Source of the DNA: Bacteroidota bacterium
Lineage (GTDB): Bacteria > Bacteroidota > Bacteroidia > Chitinophagales > Saprospiraceae
Assembly (NCBI GenBank): GCA_030147525.1
Contig: JASBVF010000029.1
Coordinates: 1 to 64,000 of the forward strand
Reading direction: 5' to 3'
Length of the DNA stretch: 64,000 nt
Within the stretch, counting starts at the first letter, position 1. Every line of letters begins with the position of its first letter. Below are positions 15,330 through 55,530 of this stretch, one piece after another. A program made the position numbers and the translations under genes. Under the pieces are notes generated by a model. It was not told the DNA's origin and made no database searches. It worked only from the letters and a program-made list of their open reading frames with translations.

Positions 15330-15353
15330 CCCCCAGTTCATTGAGCTACTACA

Positions 15354-15466
15354 CTTATCAAGAAAGGCAGAGGGATATGGCCCGTTGAAGCCTTGACAAC
15401 CTGTCCGGACGAAAGTCGGGATAAGGTGCCAACTCCATCTCCGTGAAATAACCGGAGGAAGATAAG
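15354..15466 (+). ncRNA. SAM-I (S-box) riboswitch
   Basis: The S-adenosylmethionine aptamer core is plain: P1 is CTTATC (15354-15359) with GATAAG (15461-15466). Between them come the conserved AGAGGGA-TGGCCC-TTGAAGCC, GACAACC and AAGGTGCCAACTCC segments in the family order. Bound SAM should favour the downstream terminator at 15516-15552 and so shut off the methionine-pathway operon. Confidence 0.95.
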
Positions 15467-15515
15467 TCGTCTGTGAGCGCTTTATTTTGGTCAAAGTTTT
15501 CTTTCCAATGATAAC

Positions 15516-51161: not shown

Positions 51162-51169
51162 TATTTTTG
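51162..51169 (+). promoter_or_regulatory. -7 promoter element of the LytTR regulator gene
   Basis: TATTTTTG matches TAnnTTTG. It overlaps a possible GTG start at 51169, which makes the ATG at 51196 the likelier translation start. No clear -33 element at the standard distance. Confidence 0.5.
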
Positions 51170-51195
51170 TGACTGAACAAACACGAACTACACAC

Positions 51196-52008
51196 ATGGT
51201 CTTACATTATCCGACTGAAACGCTTGAACAAAAAAAAACGGCGCCTGTGATTAAAGCGATTATTGTAGAAGACGAGATCAAGAGCATGAAAAACCTCAAA
51301 AACTTGCTGGAAAAGCATTGTCCTGAGGTTGATGTGATCGGAGATGCCTTAAACATCGAGGAAGGTATTGAATTATTTGAAGATCCGGATGTAAAACCAG
51401 ACGTAGCATTTCTTGATATCAATCTCCCGGATGGCCTCGTTTTCCGAATGTTGGATGATCTGAAACCTATTGATTTCGAAGTAATTTTTATTACCGCCTT
51501 CAACGAACACGCCATCAAAGCTTGTGAGTACAGTTCAATTGGCTACATCATGAAACCGATTGACCCGGATGAATTAATGCAGGCTGTCAGCCGAATCCGG
51601 ATCCACAAGTCTAACCAAATGGAGCAAAGGCTTGAGCTTTTCAACAAGCATCTCAACAATCCGAATGTCTTTGAAAAAATGAGTATTTCTGCAGTGGACG
51701 GTATCTATTTTGTCAATATCAAAGATATCGTTAGATTTGAGGCAGAAGACAATTACACGCACATCTTTCTAACCAACGGAGACAGAATCACCGCATCAAG
51801 AACGATAAAAGCCTACGAAGACATGCTGCAGACAATGAACTTTTACAGGGTTCACAAAAGGCATGTCATCAATTTGAATTACATGAGAAAGTTCATCAAA
51901 GGCGATGGAGGTTACCTTGTGATGGACGATGGAAAGAAAATAGAGGTGTCAAGAAGGCGGCGCCCGGCTTTTATGGAGCAAATGCGGAGACTTGAAGAAG
52001 CATTATAA
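51196..52008 (+). CDS. LytTR-family response regulator
   Basis: A 270-aa two-component regulator. The receiver domain (about 18-135) begins with KAIIVEDE; the phospho-acceptor is D74 in VAFLDINLPDG and the conserved Lys lies in GYIMKPIDPDEL. The C-terminal LytTR DNA-binding domain (about 165-270) contains IVRFEAEDNYTHIFLTNGD, FYRVHKRHVINLNYMRKF and DGKKIEVSRRRRP. Such regulators bind pairs of short direct repeats about 21 bp apart. The partner is presumably the LytS-type kinase at 52682, and candidate binding sites lie at 54894-54920 and 55380-55406. ATG 51196 is preferred to GTG 51169 (see the promoter entry). Confidence 0.93.
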   Translation: MVLHYPTETLEQKKTAPVIKAIIVEDEIKSMKNLKNLLEKHCPEVDVIGDALNIEEGIELFEDPDVKPDVAFLDINLPDGLVFRMLDDLKPIDFEVIFITAFNEHAIKACEYSSIGYIMKPIDPDELMQAVSRIRIHKSNQMEQRLELFNKHLNNPNVFEKMSISAVDGIYFVNIKDIVRFEAEDNYTHIFLTNGDRITASRTIKAYEDMLQTMNFYRVHKRHVINLNYMRKFIKGDGGYLVMDDGKKIEVSRRRRPAFMEQMRRLEEAL

Positions 52009-52175
52009 TTAAAACAAAAACTTACACTAACACTCGTGATCAGGCAATTGTGTGGACGGGAGGCTAATCCTCGTTACCAAATTTTCTCTTTGTGAATTTA
52101 TTACAATTAGGCTAAAGGATTTTTTATTCAGGGAGGCATTTGAGAAAGACACTTTAAAAAGAAGAGAAAAGTACT

Positions 52176-52183
52176 TACCTTTG
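52176..52183 (+). promoter_or_regulatory. -7 promoter element of the peptide gene
   Basis: TACCTTTG exactly fits TAnnTTTG, 86 nt before the peptide ATG at 52269. Confidence 0.55.
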
Positions 52184-52268
52184 GTAGCGAGAGAAAGCAC
52201 ACACACTTGTCTCGTCATACAAAAACGGGAACACTATGTTCGGATTATTCACTAAAAATCTTGATACT

Positions 52269-52448
52269 ATGCAGGAGGCTACCAACAAAAAAAAGAACCT
52301 GAAGGAGCTTGACAACCTCAGCCGTATGACAAAAGAGGAGATGGGTGAGTTTCTTGGAGGTAATGAAAAGATTGTTGACAGAAAGAAAAGAGGAAAATTT
52401 TTCGGGCTGTTTGGTCCGAGTCCTTGTCAGGGGGAGTTGCCTCAGTAA
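52269..52448 (+). CDS. Small peptide with double-glycine leader (candidate signal or RiPP precursor)
   Basis: A 59-aa peptide of the form expected for a secreted, processed precursor. The leader KKNLKELDNLSRMTKEEMGE-FLGG (residues 8-31) matches the Bacteroidota double-glycine precursor pattern: an amphipathic LxxLxxLS helix, then EEM and GG. Cleavage after G31 would release a 28-residue basic product containing RKKRGKFFGLFGPSPCQ with one Cys. It has its own promoter and a strong terminator and sits exactly between a LytTR regulator and a LytS-type kinase, like the peptide genes of quorum-sensing loci. No C39-type exporter is seen in this window. A longer frame from 52236 (11 extra residues) is also possible. 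Confidence 0.6.
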   Translation: MQEATNKKKNLKELDNLSRMTKEEMGEFLGGNEKIVDRKKRGKFFGLFGPSPCQGELPQ

Positions 52449-52483
52449 ATTGTGAGCAAACTGCAAGGTTGGTTATTCTCTTG

Positions 52484-52517
52484 AAGAGGCTGCATCGGCA
52501 GACGATGCAGCCTCTTT
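52484..52517 (+). terminator. Terminator of the peptide gene
   Basis: Arms 52484-52497 (AAGAGGCTGCATCG) and 52503-52516 pair perfectly over 14 bp around a 5-nt loop, ending in TTT. Confidence 0.75.
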
Positions 52518-52610
52518 GCGTTGTGCCAGCTAAGTCAGTTCACCCTTATAAATTTTTCCTTTTTTAACTCAAAGTAAATTGGTTTGCAAAGATGACCTGA
52601 TTTTAATATC

Positions 52611-52660
52611 TGAAAATCAGTCTTATTGTCTCCAAGCTCTCGCAAACCTGCCTACTTTTG
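52611..52660 (+). promoter_or_regulatory. Promoter block of the histidine kinase gene, shared with 4452-4495
   Basis: TGAAAATCAGTCT (52611) and CTCGCAAACCTGCCTACTTT (52639-52658) repeat the sequence ahead of the GNAT-like gene at 4552. It ends in TACTTTTG (52653-52660), a full TAnnTTTG match, 22 nt before the kinase start codon. Confidence 0.55.
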
Positions 52661-52681
52661 TGATAAATTGGTAAAAGTACT

Positions 52682-54601
52682 ATGGAATCATTTCAGACAC
52701 CATCTCGAGTTTCAAATGAGCCTGACCGGTTTTCAAGGGCGTCTTCAATTGTTGATGAAAGAATGCAGCGCCTGTTCTCTCTGGATAAAATGGCCAGACA
52801 GTTGGTGTTTACGGATATTTCAGCTGCACTGAAATACTTGGCCGAACAGCAGGAAATTCTCGTTGACTACGATCAACCGGACTTCAGGTTAAGTTATCAC
52901 CTCAACACAGCTTTGATAGAAAACCAGTTGTATAACTACAATTTGTCTGATATACATTTCCGTATGGCACTTGAGATTCTGGGTGAACGTGGTGACGTAA
53001 ACCAACTGGCGGAAGCTTACATCGATTATGCGGGCACATTGCTTAACCTGGAACAGACAGACCGCTCTAGATTTTACCTTTCACAGGCTGCAAAATATCT
53101 TGAAACCTATCCAGACGACCGGCTGAAGGTTCGTCTGATTTGTCGTGAAGGCTTTTTTCACCTGAAGTTTTCAAATTACGCAAAAGCTCTGCAAGCTTTT
53201 CTGGAAGCTGAGCGGCAAATAAATGCAATAACTCAACCGCTTGAATATAAAGATTATTACTTCTACACCCTGATACAAAGTGGATTGGGAACGATCTACG
53301 CTGCGAATAACGACCCTGAGAAAAGCGTTCTTGCATATCTCGAAGTTGTAAAACTCTGTGAAAAGAAAGGGATGAAATCCAGGCTTTCATGGCACTACCT
53401 CAACGTGGGTAACGGGTTTATGGCTGTTCAGGATTACGATAATGCCAGTTTTTATTTCAAAAGCGCAATCAAGGCTGTTGACGATGTTAATCAACAGGCT
53501 CGGGCTCTCGCTTACGCTAACCTCGGGTATTGTTACCTGAGCAAAGGACAGCACAAGGAAGCACTTGAACTCCTTGCCACCGCTTACCCGCTGTTCAAGG
53601 AAAAAAGAGATAAAAACCTGGCAAACATAGAATGGTGGAGAGCCAGGATTTTTGAAGGAGAAAAGGCCAAAAAAGCACTGAAACATTATCTCAAAGCCCT
53701 TGACTTCGCCAAAAAAGCGCAGGACTACAAAATGATTTCGGGTATCTTAAAAGATATTGCGGCGCTTTATTCCAAAGAACAGGATTATAAAAATGCCTAC
53801 GATTATCAGCGACTTTACGTTCAGGCCGTTGAAAAATACCTGTTTGAAGAGAAGGACTCTGAAATGAGAGAGTTGCAGATAAAGTACGAAGCTGAGCGAA
53901 AGGAAAAAGAGGTTGAAATGTTCAAACTCCAGGCTTCCGGCCTGCAGTTGAGAGCACTCAGGGCGCAGATGAACCCGCATTTTGTTTTCAATGCGTTGAA
54001 CTCTGTTCAAAATTTCATTACCTCAAATGATGGCACGCTGGCAGCAAAATATCTCGCACAGTTTGCACATTTGATGCGGCAAAGCCTGGAATATTCAGAG
54101 CTGGAAATTATTTCACTGGAAAAGGAAATTGATTTTCTCCGGGATTACCTCGAAATCAACGAAAAACTTCGCTTTGAAAACAAGCTCAGGTACGAGATTA
54201 ATGTAGACGAAGAAATCGAAGAGGATATTCTCGGTGTGCCGACCATGATCATTCAGCCTTACGTGGAAAATTCCATCGAACATGGCATCAGGCCGAAGAA
54301 AAACGGGCTGATCAAGGTGAATTTTACACTGAGGGATGAAAACACGATTCTTTGTACTATTGAAGACAACGGCGTTGGAAGAAAGCAGGCCAGATTGCTT
54401 CAACAGGATAATCCTAACTATAAGAACCACCGGTCGCTGGGGACAAAAATTACCCAAGAACGACTTGAAATACTCTTAAAATCGAAAGACCGGGATGAAA
54501 AAGTGGTTGACATCATTGACCTGGAAGACGAAGTAACCGGAGAATCACTTGGTACCAGGGTCGAAATCCTGATTCCTATCATGGATATACACATCAAATA
54601 A
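52682..54601 (+). CDS. Soluble TPR-containing LytS-type sensor histidine kinase
   Basis: A 639-aa kinase without visible signal peptide or membrane helix. Residues about 70-385 are tetratricopeptide-like repeats (LAYANLGYCYLSKGQHKEAL, SGILKDIAALYSKEQDYKNA), followed by a coiled coil (about 387-425). The His_kinase domain begins at H433 in RAQMNPHFVFNALNSVQ, the LytS-type phosphorylation site. The ATP-binding part has IIQPYVENSIEHGI (N box) and IEDNGVGRKQA (G1 box). Most Bacteroidota relatives have a transmembrane helix between repeats and kinase; its absence suggests an intracellular ligand, possibly an imported peptide. It presumably phosphorylates the LytTR regulator at 51196. A terminator follows at 54632. 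Confidence 0.93.
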   Translation: MESFQTPSRVSNEPDRFSRASSIVDERMQRLFSLDKMARQLVFTDISAALKYLAEQQEILVDYDQPDFRLSYHLNTALIENQLYNYNLSDIHFRMALEILGERGDVNQLAEAYIDYAGTLLNLEQTDRSRFYLSQAAKYLETYPDDRLKVRLICREGFFHLKFSNYAKALQAFLEAERQINAITQPLEYKDYYFYTLIQSGLGTIYAANNDPEKSVLAYLEVVKLCEKKGMKSRLSWHYLNVGNGFMAVQDYDNASFYFKSAIKAVDDVNQQARALAYANLGYCYLSKGQHKEALELLATAYPLFKEKRDKNLANIEWWRARIFEGEKAKKALKHYLKALDFAKKAQDYKMISGILKDIAALYSKEQDYKNAYDYQRLYVQAVEKYLFEEKDSEMRELQIKYEAERKEKEVEMFKLQASGLQLRALRAQMNPHFVFNALNSVQNFITSNDGTLAAKYLAQFAHLMRQSLEYSELEIISLEKEIDFLRDYLEINEKLRFENKLRYEINVDEEIEEDILGVPTMIIQPYVENSIEHGIRPKKNGLIKVNFTLRDENTILCTIEDNGVGRKQARLLQQDNPNYKNHRSLGTKITQERLEILLKSKDRDEKVVDIIDLEDEVTGESLGTRVEILIPIMDIHIK

Positions 54602-54631
54602 GCTGAATTCTGGAATTGGCTTAAAAGAAAA

Positions 54632-54667
54632 AACCGGTATTTCTGAAGAAAATACCGGTTCTTTTTT
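54632..54667 (+). terminator. Terminator of the histidine kinase gene
   Basis: Arms 54632-54642 (AACCGGTATTT) and 54650-54660 are complementary over 11 bp, followed by TTTTTT. Its two ACCGGT hexamers also lie 21 bp apart, like the LytTR-type sites ahead of the downstream modules. Confidence 0.8.
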
Positions 54668-54687
54668 AATATTTAAAATAAATTAAA

Positions 54688-54770
54688 TATTTTTGTAAAG
54701 TTTTCTCATAGTATGTTTGTTTAATCTTCCTGCACCTTACTTCCCTCCTGAGGTGCGGGAATTTTTTTTT
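54688..54770 (+). ncRNA. Small-RNA-like module, copy 1
   Basis: It has a -7 box TATTTTTG (54688-54695), the invariant 20-mer AGTTTTCTCATAGTATGTTT (54699-54718), a 10-bp hairpin (54728-54737 with 54751-54760, one wobble) and a T-tract (54762-54770). The predicted RNA is about 70 nt. A frame from the ATG inside the 20-mer stops after three codons, so it does not encode a peptide. Confidence 0.6.
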
Positions 54771-54893
54771 AACTGACTGATTTTGTGTGTAGTGTAGAAT
54801 TCTCAATAAAGTTTAGTGCTACAAGAGCCTTACTTTTTAGCCTAAAAGAATTTTTATTTTATAAATATTAGTTCCGCTTATTGGTGAAAAGAT

Positions 54894-54920
54894 ACCGTTC
54901 CCTCAAGAAGACCTACCGTT
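54894..54920 (+). promoter_or_regulatory. Candidate LytTR-regulator binding site (direct repeats 21 bp apart)
   Basis: ACCGTT occurs at 54894-54899 and 54915-54920 inside the longer repeat TACCGTTCCCTCA (54893-54905 and 54914-54926). The 21-bp period and the ACCGTT core fit LytTR binding sites. It lies 62 bp before the -7 box of module copy 2. Confidence 0.6.
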
Positions 54921-54976
54921 CCCTCATCATTTCAACCACTGCGTAAATGTAGCTTTTTTTCAGATAATGTCAAGCT

Positions 54977-55057
54977 TATCTTTGTATCAAGTTTTCTCAT
55001 AGTATGTTTAATTCTCCTACACCTTTCTTCCCTTCTGGGGTGTAGGAATTTTTTTTT
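54977..55057 (+). ncRNA. Small-RNA-like module, copy 2
   Basis: It has a -7 box TATCTTTG (54977-54984), the invariant 20-mer (54990-55009), a 9-bp hairpin (55015-55023 with 55039-55047) and a T-tract (55049-55057). Compared with copy 1 the stem has compensating changes (T-G and G-C become T-A and A-T). A 13-codon frame from the ATG in the 20-mer ends within the hairpin but is not preserved in the other copies. Confidence 0.65.
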
Positions 55058-55379
55058 ATAGCAAACACATTGAAAAACAGCCCTTTGCTGCTTCCTGCAA
55101 ACAAATTTCCATCCTGCTAAATTTTTCTTGAAAGCCTGTTGTTGAGTGAATTTTTTTTATCAACCTGTAGAAGGTTTTTAGACCCAGGATGAATTGACTA
55201 TTCTGAAACGGGCATCTTGTGGAACGATTGCCAGTAGTCTAAATCTGTGCCAATTTTCAACAATTTATAAATTATTATCTTTTTTACTATTTGGTATTGC
55301 GAAAGTTGTAAGGCATATCAAGTGTTAACAAGGTACTTCAAAAAGCAGGCGCTTCAATACCACTTTCTAAACAGAAACG

Positions 55380-55406
55380 ACCGTTTTCGTCGGGATCTCA
55401 GCCGTT
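55380..55406 (+). promoter_or_regulatory. Candidate LytTR-regulator binding site upstream of copy 3
   Basis: ACCGTT (55380-55385) and GCCGTT (55401-55406) are direct repeats with exactly 21-bp spacing, 43 bp before the -7 box of module copy 3. The following TAAATG-GCTTTT and AGCTTATCTT blocks are also shared with the copy 2 upstream region. Confidence 0.6.
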
Positions 55407-55443
55407 CCCTAAATGCGGCTTTTAAGCCACCTGGAAAAGAGCT

Positions 55444-55530
55444 TATCTTGCAGCGTGTAGTTTTCTCATAGTATGTTTAGTGCTCCTACATCAGCCTTTA
55501 GCCTCCCCCGATGTAGGAGTTTTTTTTTTT
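55444..55530 (+). ncRNA. Small-RNA-like module, copy 3
   Basis: It has a degenerate -7 box TATCTTGC (55444-55451), the invariant 20-mer (55459-55478), a 10-bp hairpin (55483-55492 with 55510-55519) and an 11-nt T-tract. One stem pair is T-A where copy 2 has C-G, a compensating change. The T-tract runs into the stop codon of the convergent pbpC gene. Confidence 0.65.

Follow-up and report, generated by a model that had tools for sequence, protein, structure and literature searches.

In the staphylococcal agr system, the LytTR regulator of a peptide system drives RNAIII, one long RNA; the signal is a cyclic thiolactone and the receptor AgrC is a membrane protein, as is ComD. The RRNPP receptors (PlcR, Rap, Rgg) are cytoplasmic tetratricopeptide repeat (TPR) proteins which bind imported peptide. 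Small RNAs (sRNAs) take part in the Vibrio Qrr system, which involves LuxO with sigma-54 and Hfq and has no peptide signal, and in the streptococcal CiaRH system, where CiaR is an OmpR-type regulator and does not belong to the pheromone's own system. To our knowledge, little has been described in Bacteroidota of either signalling by peptides or control by RNA. The CiaRH-controlled csRNAs are described as 87-151 nucleotides (nt) long (PMC4507080) and able to pair with the ribosome site and AUG of the pheromone-precursor messenger RNA (mRNA) comC (PMC4507080, PMC4211561), and the Qrr sRNAs as siblings with a conserved core, encoded by genes scattered in the genome, which act under a quorum-sensing response regulator and feed back on the circuit's own mRNA (PMC4211561). 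Here we analysed a 64,000-nt stretch of a Saprospiraceae genome (the window; contig JASBVF010000029.1, assembly GCA_030147525.1), in which genes for a LytTR regulator, a double-glycine peptide and a LytS-type kinase are followed by three short sRNA-type units. By sequence comparison, this locus is likely to be a peptide-linked two-component circuit of the Saprospiraceae whose sibling sRNAs would exert feedback on the peptide and also control surface proteins.

All parts of the locus lie on the + strand of the contig (our label G000:C34) in a host genome of 7.08 Mb. The order LytTR regulator, double-glycine peptide, TPR-LytS kinase, terminator and three sRNA-type units was found by domain matches and by sequence alike, which confirms the gene order given in an initial annotation of the window made from the sequence alone. 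The features are as follows.

51169..52008, + strand: LytTR response regulator of 279 residues with a receiver and a LytTR DNA-binding domain (PF00072 and PF04397 above cut-off)
52176..52183, + strand: possible -7 promoter box of the peptide gene, TACCTTTG (match to the consensus TAnnTTTG only)
52236..52448, + strand: double-glycine peptide precursor of 70 residues (GG leader; C-terminus mostly PQ across genera)
52682..54601, + strand: predicted soluble TPR-LytS histidine kinase of 639 residues (PF06580 at 6.9e-22, TPRs, hydropathy)
54632..54668, + strand: intrinsic terminator 3' of the kinase gene, hairpin AACCGGTATT...AATACCGGTT and T-run (read from the sequence)
54688..54695, + strand: -7 box of sRNA A, TATTTTTG (read from the sequence)
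54700..54770, + strand: sRNA A, seed tail and C-rich-loop terminator, without LytTR boxes upstream (motif, fold)
54894..54940, + strand: LytTR-type direct repeats ACCGTTCCCT (54894 and 54915) and ACCACT (54935) (box pattern)
54977..54984, + strand: -7 box of sRNA B, TATCTTTG (box pattern)
54991..55057, + strand: sRNA B, seed tail and C-rich-loop terminator (motif, fold, covariation)
55359..55406, + strand: LytTR-type direct repeats ACCACT (55359), ACCGTT (55380) and GCCGTT (55401, by eye)
55444..55451, + strand: degenerate -7-like box of sRNA C, TATCTTGC (read from the sequence)
55460..55530, + strand: sRNA C, seed tail and C-rich-loop terminator, the tail preceded by a conserved GTGTAG (55455-55460) (motif, fold, covariation)

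The three units (54700, 54991 and 55460) had in common GTTTTCTCATAGTATGTTT[AG] followed by a hairpin and a T-run, with the tail UUUUCUCAUAGUAUG single-stranded at the 5' end of each. Each was predicted to fold into a single hairpin preceded by 22-27 nt of open 5' tail, and these folds were unusually stable (z scores of -4.1 to -4.7, 0 of 200 shuffles as stable). Across the window and the relatives' loci, an intrinsic terminator lay directly downstream at 104 of 126 distinct places carrying the exact 15-mer. Covariation was examined for types B and C, using the 45 and 34 rows that remained of 108 and 68 after thinning for similarity (type B was limited to 45), of which five type B rows (L006, one of two L023, one of two L025, L126, L185) and two type C rows (L032, L129) were dropped by hand; the dropped rows were mostly atypical in hairpin or spacing, and their omission biases the pairing percentages upward. 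In the remaining 40 type B rows every cell of the stem was paired (100%) and 41 two-sided cell changes were counted (8.0 in shuffled alignments), and in the 32 type C rows it was paired in 98.1% of cells with 20 two-sided changes (2.8 shuffled) and with six pairs changed on both sides (2.1 shuffled). For both types, none of 500 shuffles matched the covariation score. The invariance of the tail is no evidence, because the units were picked by their tail, whereas the stem covariation does count. The common tail, the fold and the covarying stems bear out the three paralogous short modules with terminator hairpins of the initial annotation. No module matched Rfam at gathering score, the best weaker match having an E-value of 0.13.

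Several other features of the seed and its terminators were observed. Most terminator loops were C-rich (CCCUUC in type B, CCUCC in type C); an anti-Shine-Dalgarno role for these loops was considered and found unsupported, as no clear such site was seen by eye in the peptide genes. A fourth type of unit, type D, consists of a seed and a terminator at the 3' end of a uroporphyrinogen-III synthase-like gene (by eye) in the window's own genome (L011:5873-5950), where a degenerate inverted copy lies on the far side of the same terminator. Type D recurs across the genus (L104, L109, L114, L116, L118), and regulator boxes were found in 0 of 6 tested. A 20-mer seed followed by a strong hairpin was also observed on the viral contig IMGVR_UViG_3300048573_000410 (L376:558-577, - strand), 3' of an open reading frame (ORF) for a small membrane protein that looks holin-like by eye; this copy is possibly a phage-borne sRNA mimic. 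Three further viral 18-mer matches look like chance.

The units appear to have their own promoters. Of 240 units, 183 had a TAnnTT[TGA][GAC] box in the 26 nt directly 5' of them, compared with 27 after shuffling, most commonly at position -14, and these boxes fit TAnnTTTG, which we take to be the consensus of the Bacteroidota -7 element. In the upstream regions of the same 240 units, [AC]CC[GA][TC]T occurred 371 times (88 shuffled), with positions clustering at -98, -77 and -56 relative to the tail. A spacing of 21 nt between boxes was observed 108 times, compared with 0.3 times after shuffling, while spacings of 20 nt and of 41-42 nt were observed 22 and 49 times, and a pair of boxes 20-22 nt apart preceded 96 of the units (0.7 shuffled). 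Of the type A units, 39 of 58 had at least one box, as did 86 of 108 in type B, 52 of 68 in type C and none of 6 in type D. These box counts include units of related species and are therefore not independent. Such repeats, separated by some two helical turns and placed 5' of predicted promoters, are as would be expected of a LytTR system. The promoter boxes and 21-bp-spaced ACCGTT-type repeats that the initial annotation had reported were recovered for sRNA B and sRNA C, the window's regulator boxes being upstream of these two units, and the repeats were not recovered for sRNA A, a difference that the initial annotation passes over. The sRNA genes, their Bacteroidota-type promoters and the phased LytTR-like boxes are strongly supported as predictions, and the initial interpretation as a whole is partly supported.

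By eye, the regulator boxes are replaced in the type A promoters of the genus (54671-54695 in the window, and relatives) by an AT-rich TTTAATATT...AAAA stretch, often an inverted repeat whose arms differ between species. A genus-wide search for other regulator sites returned 120 matches (61 in the control) at up to 3 mismatches. Eleven loci from this search contained ten box pairs, four of which (L353, L362-L364) apparently lie inside a coding frame by eye. Because of the high number of control matches and these apparently coding pairs, we claim no wider regulon. One of the loci (L359, G010:C219:3057-3108) has three tandem regulator-type boxes 5' of an ORF starting MKKLRLLAVSFDTEIKPWELKRFRGA, which by eye is CRISPR-associated-like.

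We examined the spread of the system in a sample of 120 genomes, 73 from Saprospiraceae and 47 from other families of the order. The exact 15-mer was present in 43 of the 73 Saprospiraceae genomes and in none of the 47 others (43 of 120 overall), including all 14 genus genomes searched, while a reversed control pattern matched in 1 of 120. A 20-mer scan gave at least 119 stretches; among the matches listed (80), most were Saprospiraceae records, and a few record titles, such as Thalassovita, are likely mislabelled bins. Motif and peptide alike are present in the cultured relatives Phaeodactylibacter xiamenensis and P. luteus. A kinase orthologue (E <= 1e-60) was also found in 43 of the 120 genomes, and kinase and 15-mer were observed together in 41, leaving two discordant genomes on each side. 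The 15-mer occurred without the kinase in G017, as an isolated match with no terminator, and in G040, where the cluster is at a contig edge. The kinase occurred without the exact 15-mer in G061, which has a one-letter tail variant beside the kinase gene, and in G019, where no tail variant was found within 6 kb around the kinase gene. The co-occurrence is not merely linkage, because sRNAs and kinase are on separate long contigs in several genomes (for example G044 and G068). The initial annotation had suggested looking for the same order in related genomes; among 40 loci read, the order of regulator, peptide, kinase and sRNA recurred in the genus and in further genera, and regulator orthologues adjoined the kinase in many. 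A receiver and LytTR domain protein encoded beside a LytS-type kinase agrees with a LytTR two-component system.

The peptide accompanies the kinase. A profile built from 15 peptides detected members in 36 of the 73 Saprospiraceae genomes at E <= 0.05, the weakest of which are doubtful. A hand count over the 43 kinase genomes placed a peptide ORF at most about 600 nt 5' of the kinase in 36 and elsewhere in four, and found none in three. In 30 Saprospiraceae genomes without the kinase that were covered by both searches, there was a lone profile match (G017, a 1095-residue frame, E 0.04), which we took as spurious. Members of the family combine a GG leader with a short C-terminal stretch often ending CGG[IL][VIL]PQ (CQGELPQ in the window). 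As in double-glycine precursors, the GG was invariant in the 15 aligned peptides and was preceded by a hydrophobic pattern; in a larger set of 48 peptides, ORFs without GG had been filtered out, so the GG there is no independent evidence. The window gene has a second in-frame start at 52269, giving 59 residues, which aligns with the peptide starts of other genera. A box pair at 20-22 nt spacing was found within 300 nt upstream of none of the 48 peptide genes, and none was found before the regulator gene heading the cluster in the window. Because the peptide genes have no upstream box pair, classical autoinduction via the LytTR regulator is not indicated.

The initial annotation missed the probable targets of the sRNAs, namely the peptide start codon and the leaders of surface proteins. 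The tail UUUUCUCAUAGUAUG is antisense, with G-U pairs allowed, to CAUACUAUG[A/G]GAAAA at the start codon of the peptide gene. Contiguous pairing of at least 12 nt was possible for 27 of the 48 distinct peptides, compared with 8 of 850 other starts, and pairing of at least 10 nt for 37, compared with 33 of 850. The non-coding CT just 5' of the ATG was found in 46 of the 48 peptides (68 of 850 other starts). Only 1 of 300 shuffled tails had an equally high mean run, the best of them reaching 12 nt in 34 peptides, and the same number (1 of 300) was obtained with shuffles preserving CAT. In G019, the one kinase genome in which no sRNA was found near the kinase, the run at the peptide start was only 6. 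For the second start of the window peptide, the best predicted duplex had an energy of -16.1 kcal/mol. A conserved seed complementary to conserved target sites, as predicted here, is in keeping with sibling sRNAs.

Apart from the sRNA-type units, the antisense 13-mer ATACTATGAGAAA occurred at three sites in the window's own genome. These lie 5' of three paralogous genes, at distances of 235, 241 and 330 nt from the first Met; for gene 2 the start that is conserved, MVKGNGF, lies some 160 nt beyond the first Met. The paralogues have 1,300-1,375 residues, are 37-40% identical over about 1,200 residues and contain Pfam HYR (two), cohesin (two) and dockerin (one) domains. For two of them a type-IX sorting tail scored below cut-off, and the route of secretion is therefore presumed. 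The gene-2 site was present in 14 of 14 genus genomes, and the gene-1 and gene-3 sites were kept while their flanks diverged (L304/L305 compared with L306/L307; L003 compared with L106/L311). Antisense sites also preceded similar proteins in G014 and G028, the latter with a second, one-mismatch copy, and in G068 and G036 they overlapped the start codon of other proteins that look secreted. A hairpin with a U-run after it is present in gene 3 of G003 and G005, and the site makes up its loop. Thirteen of the 22 exact 15-mer places without a called terminator precede such surface-type proteins, as judged from their N-termini; of the rest, one (G027) is 1.5 kb upstream of such a protein, one is on a start codon, four look like RNA-type units with a terminator that escaped the automatic call, and three are unexplained.

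Other observations were made at these leaders. In orthologous gene-2 leaders, GTCCGGAAACCGAG lies 3' of the seed site (L013:10470-10491) and is nearly invariant, though unable to pair with the sRNA tail. A ribosomal RNA (rRNA) leader was considered for paired sites 4.5 kb apart and rejected, since no rRNA is there and two tandem surface-protein genes follow. GGG-variant matches outside the peptide locus (ten fetched loci, L294-L303) look like chance.

Comparison between genomes thus yields predicted sRNA genes, their promoter and box architecture, co-occurrence with the kinase and complementary sites, from which we propose the following circuit. A short peptide would be made as a double-glycine precursor. 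The adjacent soluble TPR kinase would respond to the peptide and phosphorylate the LytTR regulator; this step is proposed because of gene neighbourhood and co-occurrence alone. The phased repeats, together with the co-occurrence, suggest that the regulator would bind the 21-nt direct repeats at about -56, -77 and -98 from the tail and turn on transcription of most of the sibling sRNAs, which would be about 65-75 nt long and number two to four in most clusters read. On the grounds of complementarity, the 5' seed would base-pair with its antisense sequence in target mRNAs. At the start codon of the peptide mRNA this would block translation, a negative feedback, and further targets would be the long 5' leaders of some giant secreted repeat-domain (HYR, cohesin, dockerin) proteins of surface type. 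We hold more tentatively, with somewhat less confidence than doubt, a broader account, in which the sRNA array would be the main direct output of a family-wide circuit, the pheromone mRNA would be shut off at its start codon, the giant surface proteins would be controlled through their leaders, partly by antitermination in terminator-like leader hairpin loops, and phage may carry a copy of the seed.

Several findings weigh against the proposed circuit. Its weakest step is peptide sensing by the kinase. No membrane segment was found in the window's kinase (highest 19-residue hydropathy 0.86), and maximum hydropathy in 34 orthologues was 0.55-1.71, with one at 1.71; sensing would therefore need imported or internal peptide. 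With a kinase that is cytoplasmic by prediction, a secreted peptide would need re-import, and the two C39-peptidase ATP-binding cassette exporters of the genome are both outside the locus. By the pattern used, the box pair is missing in 144 of the 240 units, and sRNA A in the window has no boxes upstream. Among the five covariation measures for type B, one was not beyond shuffles, as pairs changed on both sides numbered 5 compared with 3.6, with 53 of 500 shuffles as high. Contiguous pairing was shorter than 10 nt in 11 of the 48 peptides, and the window peptide paired less well, with a run of 8 at its second start. Four of the seven full-length paralogues with a readable start lack the leader site (3 of 7 have it; three further paralogue loci stopped short of the gene start and are outside this count), and the leader sites are far from the start codon, where it is hard to see how pairing would act. 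A conservation score for the 13-mer is circular because the 13-mer was the search key, which does not affect the presence in 14 of 14 genomes or the contrast with the flanks. Position 5' of a long ORF is by itself weak evidence, as 15 of 22 non-terminator places lie upstream of one, while among RNA-type places 9 of 104 do so and among random positions 36.6%.

A different reading is that the peptide is not the signal of the kinase. It might be a bacteriocin-like or other output, the kinase might sense something internal and the sRNAs might only regulate peptide production, a reading we regard as possible and rather doubtful. The lack of a membrane segment in the kinase, the lack of a box pair upstream of all 48 peptide genes and the lysine-rich composition of several peptides (by eye) are in its favour. 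That 36 of the 43 kinase genomes have the peptide ORF close upstream of the kinase speaks for a signal instead, as does the near absence of this ORF from the 30 genomes without the kinase, and in our opinion the conserved C-terminus, often CGGI[VL]PQ, is more signal-like than toxin-like.

Two other explanations concern the units themselves. RsmY and RsmZ titrate RsmA, and several RNAs that share one regulator and carry the same single-stranded motif could likewise be decoys, with the tail bound by an RNA-binding protein that the array titrates. Bacteroides use RNA-binding proteins such as RbpB, according to one report (PMC11697453). A decoy, however, predicts no complements of the motif, yet antisense ones occur at the peptide start codon (27 of 48 compared with 8 of 850) and in the leaders, and we consider it improbable. 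It is very hard to maintain that the modules are terminators or dispersed palindromic repeats instead of RNA genes: some copies do lie at gene ends before terminators (C6 and C52 of the own genome), but the units have their own TAnnTTTG-type box in 183 of 240 cases, phased upstream repeats, a recurring gene context, an unpaired tail and covarying stems. The proposed circuit of sibling sRNAs fits these observations, as several related units with their own predicted promoter and terminator appear to share one putative regulator.

Among described systems, its mode of action would be most like that of the streptococcal csRNAs and the Vibrio Qrr sRNAs. The csRNAs resemble it in being several near-identical siblings under one two-component system with pairing at the pheromone-precursor start; in contrast, the LytTR system here neighbours the peptide gene, the RNAs have a length of about 70 nt as judged from the sequence, the seed takes the form of an open 5' tail and the host belongs to a Bacteroidota family. 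The Qrr sRNAs resemble it as conserved-core siblings with feedback, and differ in LuxO and sigma-54, Hfq, scattered genes and the lack of a peptide signal. The agr system shares a LytTR regulator of a peptide system that drives a regulatory RNA, whereas short sibling RNAs, a soluble TPR kinase and a double-glycine precursor are found here. With the RRNPP group the locus would share a cytoplasmic TPR protein as candidate peptide receptor, although in this locus the TPRs form one protein with a LytS kinase. The likeness to ComCDE and Agr drawn in the initial annotation is partial and fails for the kinase and the peptide promoter: neither a membrane-spanning receptor kinase nor a regulator site before the peptide gene (none in 48) was found, and we therefore do not assign the locus to that group.

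A literature search, whose coverage left out most subscription journals and all preprints, gave no account of such a circuit and showed no such system in Saprospiraceae. This suggests a circuit undescribed as far as searched. If the proposal is true, a short peptide would set, via RNAs of about 70 nt, which giant surface proteins are displayed, and this would perhaps affect how these bacteria stick and aggregate. Members of the Saprospiraceae are abundant in wastewater treatment plants, according to one report (PMC9304909). A defined seed with defined sites is directly testable, and new starting points are offered by the peptide family, by the RNA family and by the leader elements.

Outside the locus, the downstream neighbour on the opposite strand is a penicillin-binding protein gene. 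An S-adenosylmethionine riboswitch was also observed elsewhere in the window, at 15352-15468 (RF00162, 76.9 bits).

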